Source: Levilactobacillus angrenensis | GTDB lineage: Bacteria; Bacillota; Bacilli; Lactobacillales; Lactobacillaceae | Direction: 5' to 3' | NCBI RefSeq assembly: GCF_003946085.1 | Contig: NZ_RHOB01000003.1 | Coordinates: 1 to 64,000 of the forward strand | DNA: 64,000 nt | Part shown: in pieces, positions 10,416 to 60,608 of the stretch | Numbering within the stretch: the stretch's first letter is position 1 | Layout of the letters: each line of letters begins with the position of its first letter | The notes under the pieces: model-generated | Told to the model about the DNA's origin: nothing | Seen by the model: only the letters and a program-made list of their open reading frames with translations | Database searches by the model: none | Program-made: the position numbers and the translations under genes

Positions 10416-10716
10416 GTTACTAGCACACACTCTAGTAGCCGGGAGTTCGCCAAACATGGGTTCAGCCGTAGGAGTTGCCTTAGCGGCGCGGTTCATGCCT
10501 CTTAGACAACCGGCGTCTTTGAGACTCGGGCTTTCGGCTCAAAGCGAGGCCGAGACCGGTTCCCAGGCTCGGTCCGGTCCACCCACCGCGTTCCGACCCA
10601 TAGTTGGCGGACGGTAGGCGGCCAGTTCGAACTACGAAGCTGTAAAAAATTAATTTTAACGTGGGAAGTTGCGTGATGACAATGTTTCTAGCTGATTTTC
10701 ATCTTTCAATCTTTAG
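10416..10716 (-). repeat. Interspersed repeat, copy A (5' half only, inverted)
   Basis: Read on the minus strand it begins CTAAAGATTGAAAGATG, the best-preserved left terminus of the family, then follows the other copies through the CGCGAC box, the CCGTCCGCC arm and the GCCGCTAAGGCAACT arm, and stops after GCTAGTAAC; the 3' half is missing. It is the only clearly inverted long copy in the window. It fills most of the 520-bp gap between 10306 and 10826. Confidence 0.85.
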
Positions 10717-16529: not shown

Positions 16530-16973
16530 ATGTCTAGTTTTGAAGGGTATCATCCCCTACTGACCCCCCTCTTTCGCTTCGATTGGCTGACACAGTTCAA
16601 CTTGAAAAATGTTGCTGACCTGACTGGCAGCGACCTTGGCGCCACCGCCGACTGGGTCAACACCACCATGCACGACACCATGAATCGAACCGCGTTGACC
16701 TGGGGAATTGAACGTCGCCGGGTCCACAAGCTGGTCGCCTGGGGCGGCTTTCGCGAACTGGACCTGACTGGTCATACTGGTCAAATTGGCTTTCACGGCA
16801 AACGCCTCCCCGCCAGTGAGCAGCAAGAAATCGTTGACCGCCTCGTTCATTTTGGTCACGAAGAACTTCAGCTCACCGAATTGACGCTCACCAACGCTGA
16901 TAAATTAGACAGCGCCGTCCTGGCCGCCGCTGGTTTCCAGCAGCACGCCGATTCCTGGCAGTGGCGGGCTTAG
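16530..16973 (+). CDS. GNAT-like acetyltransferase
   Basis: A 147-residue protein resembling a divergent Gcn5-related N-acetyltransferase. It keeps the beta-strand/turn pattern LVAWGGFRELDLTG...IGFHGKRLP, then a helix, and a C-terminal ELTLTNADKLDSAVLAAAGF segment typical of the RimJ/L-type GNAT end (N..S...A...GF). The acetyl-CoA P-loop is not clearly preserved, so enzymatic activity is uncertain. A GAAAGGACC site precedes the ATG. The downstream gap holds a repeat fragment and a terminator. Confidence 0.6.
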   Translation: MSSFEGYHPLLTPLFRFDWLTQFNLKNVADLTGSDLGATADWVNTTMHDTMNRTALTWGIERRRVHKLVAWGGFRELDLTGHTGQIGFHGKRLPASEQQEIVDRLVHFGHEELQLTELTLTNADKLDSAVLAAAGFQQHADSWQWRA

Positions 16974-16983
16974 GCACATTATC

Positions 16984-17148
16984 GACAGCTGTGTCGGTAG
17001 TGTTGGCTGAGGTTTTTTCTCAGGCTGGAGGTGTTCCCCCGAGCAGGCGGAATCTCTGGCTGACGCAGGCCCCTGGTTTCCCTAATTTCAATGGACAGAA
17101 TGCTGTTGTTTCGGGAATTACCGCGTCAATGTTACTTTCAATTTTTAG
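16984..17148 (+). repeat. Interspersed repeat, copy G (3' part only)
   Basis: It matches the last 165 bases of the family: CAGCTGTGTCGG, GTGTTGGCTGAGGTTTT, GGAGGTGTTCC, GCAGGCGGAATC, GGCTGACGCAGGC and the terminal TTTCAATTTTTAG. A deletion of the central part joins TTTTCTCAG directly to GCTGGAGG. Confidence 0.85.
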
Positions 17149-17175
17149 TCGCTCAAAACAAAATGACTAACCCCC

Positions 17176-22935: not shown

Positions 22936-22938
22936 GCT

Positions 22939-23400
22939 GTACACGGTTGAAAGATGAAAATCAGCTAGAAACATTGCCACCGCGCGACTCATGGCGTAAA
23001 GATTAGTCGTTTACAGCTTCGTAGTGTGTACTGGCCGCCTACCGTCCGCCAACTATGGGTTGGAACGCGGTGGGCGGACTCCCGGCTACAAAAGTGCGTA
23101 CCAGTAACAAGCGGCTTAGCCCCAAGTAGCGACTGTTTTGGCAACTAGTCTTTGACTAACACAGTATTGCTGACGATTGTCACTCTTTGCCGGAGGCAGC
23201 CAGGGTGAAGCCAGCTGTGGCGACGGTGTTGGCTGAGGTTTTGTCTCAGCCTACAGCGTGAGACGACTTGAGAGACTGGTGACTTTTGCCAGTCTTTCAA
23301 GCGAACCGGAAGACCGCTTCTCAGGCTGGCGGTGTTCCCCAGAGCAGGCGGAATCCTGGCTGCCGCAGGCCCTGCCCCATAGTTGACGAACGACAAGCGG
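22939..23400 (+). repeat. Interspersed repeat, copy B (internal deletion, 3' end lost)
   Basis: Starts near the family terminus (GGTTGAAAGATGAAAATCAG) and runs to GGCTGCCGCAGGCCCTG. The segment between the two GGCGGAC sequences is absent: GGGCGGAC at about 23070 is joined straight to TCCCGGCTAC, as expected for recombination between short direct repeats. The right terminus is replaced by unrelated sequence ahead of the yibE/F genes. Confidence 0.85.
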
Positions 23401-34100: not shown

Positions 34101-34108
34101 TTATATAA
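34101..34108. repeat. Left 8-bp flanking duplication of repeat copy C
   Basis: TTATATAA sits directly against the left terminus of repeat copy C and recurs directly after its right terminus at 34749-34756. This is the form of a target-site duplication. The site is AT-rich and palindromic, so chance identity is somewhat more likely than for random sequence. Confidence 0.65.
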
Positions 34109-34748
34109 CTGAAGACTGAAAGATGAAAATCAGCTAAAAACATTGTCACCACGCGACTTCTCACGTTAAAACTAGTCGTTTAAAGCATCCTAGCGAGAAC
34201 TGGTCGCCTACCGTCCGCCAACTATGGGTTGGAACGCGGTGGGCGGACCGGACCGAGCCTGAGAAGCGGTCTCGGCCTCGCTTTGAGCCGATGGCCCACG
34301 TCTCAAAGACGCCAGTTGCCTAAGCGGCATGAACCGCGCCGCTAAGGCAACTCCCACGGCTGAACCCATAGTTGGCGGACTCCCGGCTACAGGAGTGCTT
34401 GATAGTAACAGTTGGCCTAGCCCCAGGTAGCGGCTGATTTGACAACTAGTCTTTGACTAACACAGTATTGCTGATGATCGTCACTCTTCGCCGGAGGCAG
34501 CCAGGGTGGAGCCAGCTGTGGCGACGGTGTTGGCTGAGGTCCTTTCTCAGCCTACAGCGTGGGACGACTTGGGAGACTGGCGAGCTTTGCCAGGCTTCAA
34601 AGCGAACCGGAAGACCGCTCCTCAGGCTGGAGGTGTTCCCCATAGCAGGCGGAACCCTGGCTGACGCAGGCCCTGGTTTCACTAGTTTTAGTGAACAAAA
34701 CGCTATCACTCTGGGAGTCAAGATATTAATTCAGTTTTCAACCTTTAG
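34109..34748 (+). repeat. Interspersed MITE-like repeat, copy C (full length, 640 bp)
   Basis: The reference copy. Termini CTGAAGACTGAA (left) and TTCAACCTTTAG (right) are imperfect inverted repeats (9 of 12), and an 8-bp duplication flanks it. Inside, GTCCGCCAACTATGGGTT (34213-34230) and AACCCATAGTTGGCGGAC (34363-34380) form a perfect 18-bp inverted repeat that encloses a second near-perfect 15-bp one (34314-34328 with 34338-34352). The 3' half contains the GTGTTGGCTGAGG and GGAGGTGTTCCCC boxes seen in other copies. No transposase is encoded. Confidence 0.88.
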
Positions 34749-34756
34749 TTATATAA
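34749..34756. repeat. Right 8-bp flanking duplication of repeat copy C
   Basis: Second TTATATAA, directly after CTTTAG at the right terminus. Confidence 0.65.
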
Positions 34757-41947: not shown

Positions 41948-42016
41948 GTCGCGTTAAATCACGAAGGTTCCCGGGTTTTGCGGTTGTCGTGTGTTCTGCT
42001 AATTTTGAAAACACTT

Positions 42017-42285
42017 GTGAAAATCAGCTAGAAACATTGTCACCACGCGACTGATGGCGTAAAAATTAGTCGTTTACAGCATCCTAGTGAAGACTGACCG
42101 CCTACCGTCCGCCAACTATGGGTTGGAACGCGGTGGGCGGACCGGAAGACCGCTTCTCAGGCTGAAGGTGTTCCCCATAGCAGGCGGAATCTCTGGCTGA
42201 CGCAGGCCCCTGGTTTCACTAGTTTTAGTGAACAGAACACTGTTGTTCCGGGAACTACCGGGTTAATGCTATTTTCAGACTCTAG
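42017..42285 (+). repeat. Interspersed repeat, copy D (internal deletion)
   Basis: Carries the left part (GAAAATCAGCTAGAAAC to GGGCGGACCGGA) joined directly to the right part (AGACCGCTTCTCAGGCTG to the terminal CTCTAG). The junction falls at CCGGA, a five-base sequence present at both ends of the missing segment in the full copy. Confidence 0.85.
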
Positions 42286-42293
42286 TTGTAAAC

Positions 42294-42328
42294 AAAAAGC
42301 AGCCAGTAGGAATGGTCCCACTGACTGC
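42294..42328 (-). terminator. Terminator of pgm
   Basis: On the minus strand GCAGTCAGT...ACTGGCTGC arms with a short loop are followed by TTTTTG. Confidence 0.8.
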
Positions 42329-44225: not shown

Positions 44226-44380
44226 CGCTTAGCCACCGGTGGTGTTCCCCATAGCAAGCGGAACCCTGGCTGACGCAGGCGCCTGGTTTCACTAGTGAGG
44301 CTTTAAGCGCCTCCAGAGACCGCTCTTTGGCTCTGGGGGTTGCCCCACAGGGTGGAGCTACCTGGCTGCTGAAGCGATCA
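44226..44380 (+). repeat. Interspersed repeat, copy H (two divergent 3' modules in tandem)
   Basis: 44226-44295 matches the GGTGTTCCCCATAGCA...GGCTGACGCAGG...TTTCACTAGT part of the family. 44308-44380 (AGACCGCTCTTTGGCTC, GTTGCCCCACAGGGTGGAGC, CTGGCTGCTGAAG) looks like a second, more diverged version of the same module. Both lie in the 312-bp gap between pgm and galM. Confidence 0.6.
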
Positions 44381-47605: not shown

Positions 47606-48571
47606 ATGTCAAAACCAGAATTATGGGTCATTGCGGAACGCCGCTTAGATCACGTGGAATCCACGACCCAACAATTGATTACGAAGGCTAAAAGCTTAGC
47701 CGGCGACCATTTCAACGTCGTGACTATCCTGTTGGAGGCCACCACCGACCATTTGGAAGATGAACTCAGCGCTTACGGCCCCGATGAGATTCGCATTGCC
47801 CGCGACGACCGCTTCCCAACCGCCACGGACGCCGAACTCGCCGACGCCATCAAGCAGTTGGTCGACCAATACCAGCCTAACTCGATTCTCTTCGGCGCCA
47901 CCATCACCGGTCGTTCAATCGCTCCCCGGCTTCAAGCCAAGCTCCAGACCGGTTTAACGGCCGACTGTTTGGACCTGCGTTTCGATGACGAGACCTTGGT
48001 CGCCACCAAGCCTTCTTACGGGGACAATATCATGTGCGAAATCATTTGCCCAGACCACTTACCGCAAATGGCGACGGTCCGGCCCAACACCTTCGTGGCA
48101 ACGCCGGCAGCTGGGGCGGCTACGGTGACGGACAGTCCCGTGACCTTCCACCCCGTTGACCGGCTCCAAGTCACGGCGGCCACCCCCGTGGTCAACACGG
48201 CCACGACGGTCGGCGATGCCACTCGCGTTGTCGCTTTAGGCCGCGGTGCCGCCAGTGCTGCCACCATCGACAGCGCCACAAAATTAGCTGAAAAGCTTGG
48301 CGGTCGCATCGGGGTCTCCCGGCCATTAACGGACCAACCCCGGTTCACTCACGACGACCAAATCGGCCAGAGTGGTAACACCATTCATCCTGAACTGATC
48401 GTCAACTTCGGAATCAGTGGCGCCGTGCAATACTTGGTCGGCATGCAAGATTCCCAGACCATCGTTGCGGTCAACGCCGATGAAAATGCCCCTATTTTTG
48501 ACGTCGCAGATTATGGCTACGTCGGGGATGCCCAAGCGTTCATGACGGCTCTGCTGGCCCAATTCAACTAA
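47606..48571 (+). CDS. etfA: Electron transfer flavoprotein, alpha subunit
   Basis: A 321-residue FAD-carrying subunit. The C-terminal FAD domain shows GRGAASAATIDSATKLAEKLGG, GVSRPLTD, IGQSGNTIHPEL, NFGISGAVQYLVGM and the end motif NADENAPIFDVADYGYVGD. AAGGAGG lies before the ATG, 13 bases after etfB. No extra ferredoxin domain is present. Last gene of the unit; repeat copy E begins about ten bases after the stop. Confidence 0.94.
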   Translation: MSKPELWVIAERRLDHVESTTQQLITKAKSLAGDHFNVVTILLEATTDHLEDELSAYGPDEIRIARDDRFPTATDAELADAIKQLVDQYQPNSILFGATITGRSIAPRLQAKLQTGLTADCLDLRFDDETLVATKPSYGDNIMCEIICPDHLPQMATVRPNTFVATPAAGAATVTDSPVTFHPVDRLQVTAATPVVNTATTVGDATRVVALGRGAASAATIDSATKLAEKLGGRIGVSRPLTDQPRFTHDDQIGQSGNTIHPELIVNFGISGAVQYLVGMQDSQTIVAVNADENAPIFDVADYGYVGDAQAFMTALLAQFN

Positions 48572-48581
48572 GTTTAGATAA

Positions 48582-49076
48582 ATCACCACGCGACTGGTGA
48601 CGTAGAAATCAGTCGTTTGTAGCATCGTAGTGTGTACTGGTCGCCTACCGTCCGCCAACGATGGGTTGGGACGCGGTGGGCGGACCGGACCGAGCCTGAA
48701 AAGCGGTCTCGGCCTCGCTTTGAGCCGGCAACCCGCGTCTCAAAGACGCCAGTTGCCTAAGCGGCATGAACCGCGCCGCTAAGGCAACTCCCACGGCTGA
48801 ACCCATAGTTGGCGGACTCTCGGCTACTAGCGTGCTTGCCAGTAAAAGTCGGCTTAGCCCCAGGTGGCAGCTGATTTGGCAATGTTTTTTCAACTGACAA
48901 ACGCTGCTGATAATCGCTAACCCGCCGGAGGCAGTCACTAGAAGACTACTCTTTGGCTGAAGGTGTCCCCCATAGCAGGCGGAACCTCTGGCTGATGCAG
49001 GCTCCTGGGTCCACTAATTTTAGTGAACAAAACACCGCCATTCTGGGAAGTACCACGTCAATGCTACTTTCTTTAG
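48582..49076 (+). repeat. Interspersed repeat, copy E (partly deleted)
   Basis: Contains the CACCACGCGAC box, the CCGTCCGCCAACGATGGGTTGG arm and its partner AACCCATAGTTGGCGGAC with the inner GCCGCTAAGGCAACT hairpin, then jumps from CGCCGGAGGCAGTCAC to AGACTACTCTTTGGCTG and ends at CTTTAG. It fills the gap after etfA. Confidence 0.85.
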
Positions 49077-59975: not shown

Positions 59976-60608
59976 CTGAAGGTGGAAGGATGAAAATCAG
60001 CCAGAAAAATTGTCACCACGCGACTCATGGCTTAAGAATTAGTCGTTTACAGCTCTGTAGTTTGCGCTGGCCGCCTACCGTCCGCCAACTATGGGTTGGA
60101 ACGCGGTGAGCGGACCGGACCGAGCCTGAGGGACGGTCTCGCTTTGAGCCGAAAGCCCGCGTCTCAAAGACGCCAGTTGCCTAAGCGGCATGAACCGTGC
60201 CGCTAAGACAACTCCCACGGCTGAACCCATATTTAGCGAACTCTCGGCTACTAGAGTGTGTGCTAGTAATGGTTGGTTCGGCCCCAGTTAGCGGTTAATT
60301 TAGCAACTAGTCTTTGACTAACACAGTGTCGTTGGTAAGCACCAACCCGCCGGAGGCAGCCAGAGATGTAGCCAGCTGTGTCGACGGTGTTGGCTGAGGT
60401 TTTTTCTCAGCCTACAGCGTGGGGCGACTTTAGAGACTCGCGGACTTGGCCAGGCTTTCAAGCGAACCGGAAGACCGCTTCTCAGGCTGGAGGTGTTCCC
60501 CAGAGCAGGCGGAACCCTGGCTGACGCAGGCCCTGTTTTTACTAGTTTTAGTGGACAAAGCTCTGTCGTTCCGGGAGTTAACGTGTTAATTCATCATTCA
60601 ATCTTTAG
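59976..60608 (+). repeat. Interspersed MITE-like repeat, copy F (near full length, 633 bp)
   Basis: From CTGAAGGTGGAAGGATG to TTCAATCTTTAG it follows copy C over its whole length. The inner arms have drifted (right arm AACCCATATTTAGCGAAC) and no flanking duplication is left, so it is older. A short extra fragment with CGCGGTGGGCGG at 59867-59880 lies just before it. Confidence 0.87.

Follow-up and report, generated by a model that had tools for sequence, protein, structure and literature searches.

Members of the ISPepr1 subgroup are insertion sequences (IS) of 1500-1600 bp that have ends of the form YT-AA-YTT---A and produce 7-8 bp direct repeats in AT-rich targets (PMC2266710). The element analysed here, from a 64,000-nucleotide stretch (the window) of a Levilactobacillus genome (G000, a 2.80-Mb draft in 62 contigs), resembles that subgroup in the 14-bp ends, the duplications of 7-8 bp and the AT-rich targets, but has no transposase (PMC2266710). 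BOX, from Streptococcus pneumoniae, is likewise modular, structured and present in high copy number, measures 67-637 bp and was judged parasitic by its authors; according to its description it is set apart by its boxA-boxB(n)-boxC composition, in contrast to the two homologous divergent modules enclosed by IS4-type ends of our element (PMC3049150). The bcr1 repeat of the Bacillus cereus group is similar in its restriction to one bacterial group, its 11-130 copies, its mobile-like character and its conserved fold, but it is 147-167 bp long, contains a TTTAT motif and has been proposed to spread by a recombination-like mechanism; the accessible text of its descriptions includes neither a divergent module pair nor IS4-type ends, and sets it apart to that extent (PMC6542083, PMC2267715). 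QMITE2 and other bacterial miniature inverted-repeat transposable elements (MITEs), as far as they are portrayed in the available part of the source, share with the element terminal inverted repeats (TIRs), duplications of 7-9 bp and a foldable transcript, and differ from it in that its modules are GC-rich (61-63%), mutually homologous and marked by base-pair covariation across species (PMC10969869).

Among the features by which a bacterial MITE is recognised, those present were TIRs, a target duplication, no transposase, empty sites and ends shared with an autonomous IS. A literature search, made largely in openly accessible papers, returned no description of this repeat, which is weak evidence of novelty, and within the same scope no paper contained both 'Levilactobacillus' and 'miniature inverted-repeat'. 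The paired covarying modules inside a MITE are the part of the observation that we regard as new.

The focal copy occupies positions 34109..34748 of the window (plus strand; 640 bp, non-coding) and its ends directly abut two identical target duplications, TTATATAA, at 34101..34108 and 34749..34756, in agreement with a first-pass annotation made from the sequence alone. The same annotation had described imperfect inverted repeats at the termini, and the ends of this copy indeed read CTGAAGACTGAA and TTCAACCTTTAG; the left TIR (34109..34122, plus strand) is 14 bp long, with the consensus CTRAAGGTTGAAAG and the focal variant CTGAAGACTGAAAG, and the right TIR (34735..34748, minus strand) is the inverted partner of the CTRAAGGTTGAAAG-type left end. 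Two copies of a structured module, M, face outwards inside the element: module A (34205..34386, minus strand) and module B (34490..34672, plus strand), the latter identified by covariation and by a covariance model, with a variable middle spacer between them (34387..34489; element positions 279-381). A covariance model built from B alone found module A on the opposite strand in the focal copy (61.8 bits, E 3.5e-13, full length) as well as in other copies, from which the end-to-end layout follows: end, spacer, M reversed, middle, M, spacer, end. Modules A and B together account for over half of the element's length, and their G+C content of 61-63% compares with 40-42% in the outer parts, so that the AT-richness that is usual in MITEs, without defining them, was not found here.

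Only one open reading frame of at least 110 aa overlaps the focal copy, a 111-aa TTG frame running out of the element, and the element thus appears to carry no transposase gene. Neither the focal copy, middle spacer included, nor its surroundings contained a promoter-like site in a consensus scan, which detected two terminator-like sites (0.9 expected), one of them inside the element. The focal element had no match in the plasmid and phage collections. Rfam 15 gave no match in the window, and the four hits obtained around the element at E up to 10 were all far below gathering scores (best E 0.15); a known conserved RNA, which the first-pass annotation had named as the identification that would speak against mobility, was thus not encountered.

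BLAST with the focal copy as query detected two full-length copies in the window, the second one at 59976..60608 (plus strand), where both modules were present by BLAST and by the covariance model. The others were an incomplete copy at 48544..49048 (plus; module A at 48642-48823, weak B), internally deleted copies at 22938..23374 (plus; module B at 23189-23371) and 42001..42298 (plus; BLAST and covariance model), a reversed incomplete copy at 10416..10716 (minus; part of module A at 10439-10620), a fragment with module B remains at 16963..17161 (plus; BLAST and covariance model) and a 59-bp fragment of module B at 44238..44296 (plus; BLAST). Four of the incomplete copies were matched by BLAST itself over 48583-49048, 22948-23374, 42018-42241 and 16986-17104. 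The seven or more additional copies counted earlier can be maintained if fragments are included, since one is full-length, five are incomplete or fragmentary and one is the 59-bp piece.

A search of the whole G000 genome produced 272 candidates, and all of the scored ones matched (n = 40/40). In 20 sampled stretches of 20 kb (400 kb), 40 pieces accounted for 2.1% of the sequence, which extrapolates to ~280 copies or fragments per genome; no copy was present in six of these stretches (L243, L248, L249, L250, L252 and L261), so the chromosomal distribution may be uneven. The exact 14-mer end CTRAAGRTTGAAAG occurred 95 times in G000 (45 + 50), and its reversed control did not occur at all. Many copies are internal-deletion derivatives, down to ~277-281 bp, that kept both ends. 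Forty G000 copies were aligned together with their flanks, and their nearest-neighbour identity, counted with 25-bp flanks, had a maximum of 0.936 and a median of 0.852, giving no sign of a very recent burst.

Exact target duplications were found in 19 of 39 end-bounded pairs from G000 (a set in which the focal element is counted twice and two end-like pairs have no similarity to the element), seven of them of 8 bp and twelve of 7 bp, against 0.2% in a control of 1482 mismatched flank pairs (0.07% and 0.13% exact). Six of the remaining pairs had one mismatch and 14 lacked a duplication, L302, scored among these misses, having an exact 9-bp repeat. The bases from the exact cases were 82% A+T. 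The 8-bp duplication proposed in the first-pass annotation is therefore correct for the focal copy and not as a rule for the family, in which 7 or 8 bp are duplicated (12 versus 7 exact cases), and the duplications it suggested seeking at other copies do exist.

Empty sites in relatives, also suggested there as a check, were precise at the focal position: in L193 (G033) and L194 (G003) the flanks run through a single TTATATAA with no element, and the window flanks, joined computationally, align around these sites without a break. The genomes concerned belong to sister species, G003 matching CP032931.1 (L. brevis CD0817) and G033 matching NZ_RKLX01000013.1 (L. suantsaiihabitans); 32 of 35 genomes of the genus have the gene that neighbours the focal copy. 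Clean empty sites were present in both sister species for a second copy, L021 (duplication ACAAATAA), and at the L042 and L034 sites the element was absent from both, with junctions too diverged to read. The element was thus absent at all four tested sites in both sister species, and the junction was readable at two of them. Other element pieces were seen elsewhere in some of the compared L042/L034 loci, and near the CD0817 empty site (L194 2500-4026) the flank contains a repeated stretch that takes in a similar TTATATAA region, with module-like fragments adjoining it.

An exact element-type end on G000 contig C30 (L295 2067-2441) adjoins the 3' end of a truncated IS4-type transposase frame and has no similarity to the element interior; by eye, a second transposase-like frame is visible upstream of this remnant. 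A search of 35 genus genomes with the C30 piece matched 10 and led to an intact IS4-family IS of 1559 bp, L306, both ends of which, CTAAAGGTTGAAAG, are exact element-type TIRs, matching ends of the kind that the first-pass annotation had proposed looking for. L306 is flanked on both sides by the 8-bp duplication CTGATTAA and contains an open frame of 489 codons from stop to stop (first ATG at codon 40), whose product scored 469.9 bits with NCBIfam NF049925 (transpos_IS4_4, 'IS4 family transposase'; cutoff 250) and carries the Y-(2)-R-(3)-E-(6)-K signature, YARRWQIEGYFKVAK. Its host, G019, matches L. koreensis JCM 16448, another species of the same genus, and L306 and the element are clearly alike only in their terminal 14-15 bases. 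In the published portrayal of the ISPepr1 subgroup, L306 finds its size class, its Y-R-E-K motif, its CT ends and its 8-bp duplication, and the ends CTAAAGGTTGAAAG agree with YT-AA-YTT---A except at position 7, G in L306 and Y in the subgroup (PMC2266710); as judged from its sequence, it fits nearly all published ISPepr1 features, all but end position 7. Related 1562-bp IS with a 489-codon frame were observed at L310 1156-2717 and L313 382-1943 (G010 and G020), with ends CTGAAACTTGAAAG or nearly so, and relatives with shorter frames in G032 and G013. The CTGAAACTTGAAAG ends of L310 agree fully with the ISPepr1 consensus YT-AA-YTT---A as printed in the source (PMC2266710). No flanking duplication was seen at the three other full-length relatives examined, L305, L310 and L313.

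Exact end pairs 1-3 kb apart, as expected for an autonomous copy, included none that was transposon-like in G000, G003, G015 and G029. An inward end pair 2.2 kb apart on G000 contig C56 consisted of two neighbouring element copies without a helper-like frame, the lone ends L170 and L181, considered as leads to a helper, look like decayed element ends, and solved structures yielded no transposase relative below E 0.4. An intact helper IS was not found in G000, where the truncated C30 remnant was the sole relative seen; for this reason, and because identity among copies does not exceed 0.936, the family does not look freshly active in this genome. An L306-type IS is nevertheless the probable helper that moves the element, given the shared ends and the size of the duplication.

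The mobility of the element is well supported at the sequence level by its ends, its duplications, the empty sites, the number of copies and the same-ended intact IS. The first-pass picture of a non-autonomous mobile element without a transposase, backed by the ends, duplications and empty sites, consequently holds as regards mobility, and what went unseen in it was the covarying, structure-constrained pair of modules. The best explanation of the data as a whole, which we consider likely, is that an element with IS4-type ends is moved by an L306-type transposase and carries an outward pair of M under selection for pairing. The shared 14-bp ends (CTRAAGGTTGAAAG) would serve this IS4-type transposase as recognition sites, and its activity would give rise to the 7-8 bp AT-rich duplications.

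Pairwise identity in the aligned copies was 0.92 in block A (92-275) and 0.90 in block B (379-562), compared with 0.76 in the internal spacer and 0.69 in the outer parts, the latter value partly lowered by truncated copies. B modules were collected across many species (n = 130), and 85 of them were aligned together with those of the window. RNAalifold predicted 53 pairs in arm B, 38 of them with compensatory changes; 97.9% of the cells could pair, against 33.3-43.5% when the partners were slid by 1-3 columns, and none of 500 shuffles reached the observed value in any of five measures, although these counts are not independent events, since many rows share a species and the shuffles take no account of relatedness. 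In arm A, read on the minus strand in 72 modules, 33 of 39 predicted pairs had compensatory changes. Compared by plain BLAST, arms A and B showed weak similarity (best 16, shuffled maximum 16), and their homology is accordingly based on the covariance model. Among adjacent modules within 500 bp (65 of 105 named loci, 163 matches kept of 204), 48 were divergent, none convergent and 13 in tandem, and 47 modules had no neighbour. At L115 2791-3340 (L. cerevisiae), the module is present three times in tandem, a departure from the divergent arrangement that is usual.

Each arm is an inverted relative of the other, and good folding is usual for MITE transcripts according to the available part of one account (PMC10969869); the element could therefore be an ordinary MITE that folds strongly only as a consequence of inverted duplication, with no selection on structure. 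The compensatory changes at 38 of the 53 pairs, however, lie inside a single arm, and neither the slid nor the shuffled alignments reached the observed values, so that covariation refutes this explanation unless the alignment is grossly wrong; we regard it as very improbable. The comparative analysis instead shows two homologous modules of ~180 nt in divergent orientation whose predicted fold is maintained by strong selection on base pairing. What lies between the ends of a bacterial MITE is commonly taken for filler; here it is under clear selection for a complex fold, kept twice in mirror orientation in many species and in a second genus, in an element with a nameable probable helper and clean empty sites. 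Why a transposon without genes keeps an RNA-like fold becomes a question that harmless food bacteria make directly testable.

Wobble pairs on the outward strand were mostly G-U, both in the B structure (G-U 337 versus A-C 47) and in A, read on the minus strand (G-U 93 versus A-C 26), indicating that the fold is kept in the outward sense; structures predicted on the wrong strands showed the same direction of asymmetry. This outward G-U excess favours RNA as the form in which M would act. Single-stranded DNA, too, is disturbed less by G-T wobble than by A-C, so the asymmetry is no proof of RNA. The main rival explanation is that M acts as single-stranded DNA or as a cruciform that a protein recognises while DNA is moved or replicated, in line with the divergent symmetry, by which each DNA strand has an M in its 3' half, with the position of M within ~20-30 nt of the element borders in G198, a genome of another genus, and with the lack of both a sense preference of solo modules and a promoter-like site. 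Recognition of single-stranded DNA, though, usually involves simple hairpins, unlike the 53-pair multi-branched fold with conserved unpaired positions found here; IS4-type cut-and-paste is not known to pass through a long single-stranded step, and the G-U tolerance fits RNA well, for which we hold this rival to be unlikely. We find it fairly probable that the working form of M is RNA, produced by transcription running outwards across the element.

The level at which the fold is selected was approached through the variants of the 40 aligned G000 copies. Per letter, singletons occurred at 0.0069 in the stems of module B and at 0.0087 in the spacer, about equally often (Fisher p 0.38), whereas shared variants were 3.5 times rarer in stems (0.046 versus 0.160); unpaired B positions were in between (singletons 0.0089, shared variants 0.082). 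Pairing was kept by 159 of 187 shared stem variants and by 12 of 28 singletons, against a random expectation of 27%, in a comparison of small numbers in which shared variants are not independent. Because shared variants mostly keep pairing and singletons more often break it, the constraint on spreading lineages seems to exceed that on each resident copy, which suggests that the fold serves spreading lineages; the 12 of 28 singletons, relative to the 27% at random, may reflect some constraint on resident copies. The survival of solo A-type modules in unrelated flanks counts against a constraint acting on spreading lineages. Three of these (L247 8851-9032, L253 7599-7777 and L244 12007-12185) have sharp borders, unrelated flanks and no recognisable terminal repeats, and a weaker fourth also survives in unrelated flanks.

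With a simple ORF caller, 42 of 43 copies could be classed by gene context, and 24 were between convergent genes, 18 between codirectional genes and none between divergent genes, the background junctions being 35 convergent, 256 codirectional and 40 divergent; the classed copies thus sit at gene 3' ends. This position, with 0/42 copies between divergent genes, and the solo modules that survive with sharp borders in unrelated flanks would agree with a host-useful 3'-UTR or regulatory RNA, spread by the MITE and kept by the host site by site. Solo modules, however, of which 41 of 54 were classed, were in the sense of both neighbours in 15 cases and antisense to both in 18 (7 lay between convergent genes and 1 between divergent genes), and this absence of a sense preference weakens a role in host mRNAs, which orientation did not support for solo modules (15 same/same versus 18 opposite/opposite). 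Stem singletons, moreover, are not significantly rarer than spacer ones and often break pairs, and neither sister species has the element at any of the four insertion sites tested; a benefit to the host at each site therefore appears quite improbable. As the constraint is strong in shared variants and weak or absent in singletons, we lean towards the reading that M helps the element to persist or spread rather than serving the host site by site. One speculative guess, which we put forward as possible but rather doubtful, is that M neutralises read-through beside the gene 3' ends where copies sit, by folding in any transcript about to leave the element, whichever side it entered from; with a sense M just before either exit and copies at gene 3' ends, such a role would explain the symmetry.

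By DNA similarity, 27 of 58 genomes matched, all of them Levilactobacillus (1 of 18 genera), and IS4-type ends recur in several species within this genus. The covariance model, run on 198 genomes of the order, matched three: G000, G198, from another genus of the same family (13 of 13 scored matches, best E ~1e-15), and one genome of a third genus with a single, weak match. Within the genus of G198, seven of eight genomes matched, with 134, 51, 39, 38, 21, 2 and 1 matches. Divergent module pairs were present in 8 of 9 loci of G198, where the elements end ~20-30 nt beyond M, and the single loci from other genomes of this genus mostly showed one module and once a tandem pair. No clear shared ends or duplications emerged from eight G198 loci, and CTRAAGG ends in 39 second-genus loci (79.7 kb) amounted to one two-mismatch likeness far from M, so M is not tied to IS4-type ends or to this helper.

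These data bear on a further explanation, that M is an older mobile or parasitic RNA or DNA unit with its own propagation, of which the IS4-type ends are one later packaging. Its occurrence in seven of eight second-genus genomes with up to 134 matches, the near absence of CTRAAGG ends there with borders close to M, and the sharply bordered solo modules of G000 point in that direction, as does conservation outside M, which drops within ~30 nt in four of five species groups (no gaps) and stays moderate for most of 100 nt in the fifth (HBUAS51381). The second genus nonetheless offers no clear duplications or common terminal repeats, and IS4-type ends recur across Levilactobacillus species, so we consider an independently propagating unit unlikely, and retain an element with IS4-type ends and an L306-type helper as the preferred reading for Levilactobacillus. 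We propose only tentatively, as something that may well prove otherwise, that M is an undescribed structured RNA family of at least two genera, reaching hundreds of copies in some genomes; that selfish elements rely on it and mostly carry it as two units facing outwards; and that it has been packaged into different mobile elements (in Levilactobacillus, an IS4-type MITE). Were this correct, an RNA fold would be maintained in the interest of a transposon that has no genes, which would be an uncommon situation. For annotators, the covariance model describes part of a repeat that covers 2.1% of the 400 kb sampled and is unrecognised by Rfam.

The second-genus genomes with M are G198, G232, G233, G234, G235, G236 and G237 (loci among L223-L240 and L314-L343). 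A plasmid search made for the second-genus question gave one 69-bp match in a Lactiplantibacillus plasmid, and in G232 and G236 M was observed in a shortened 142-nt form within a longer repeat.
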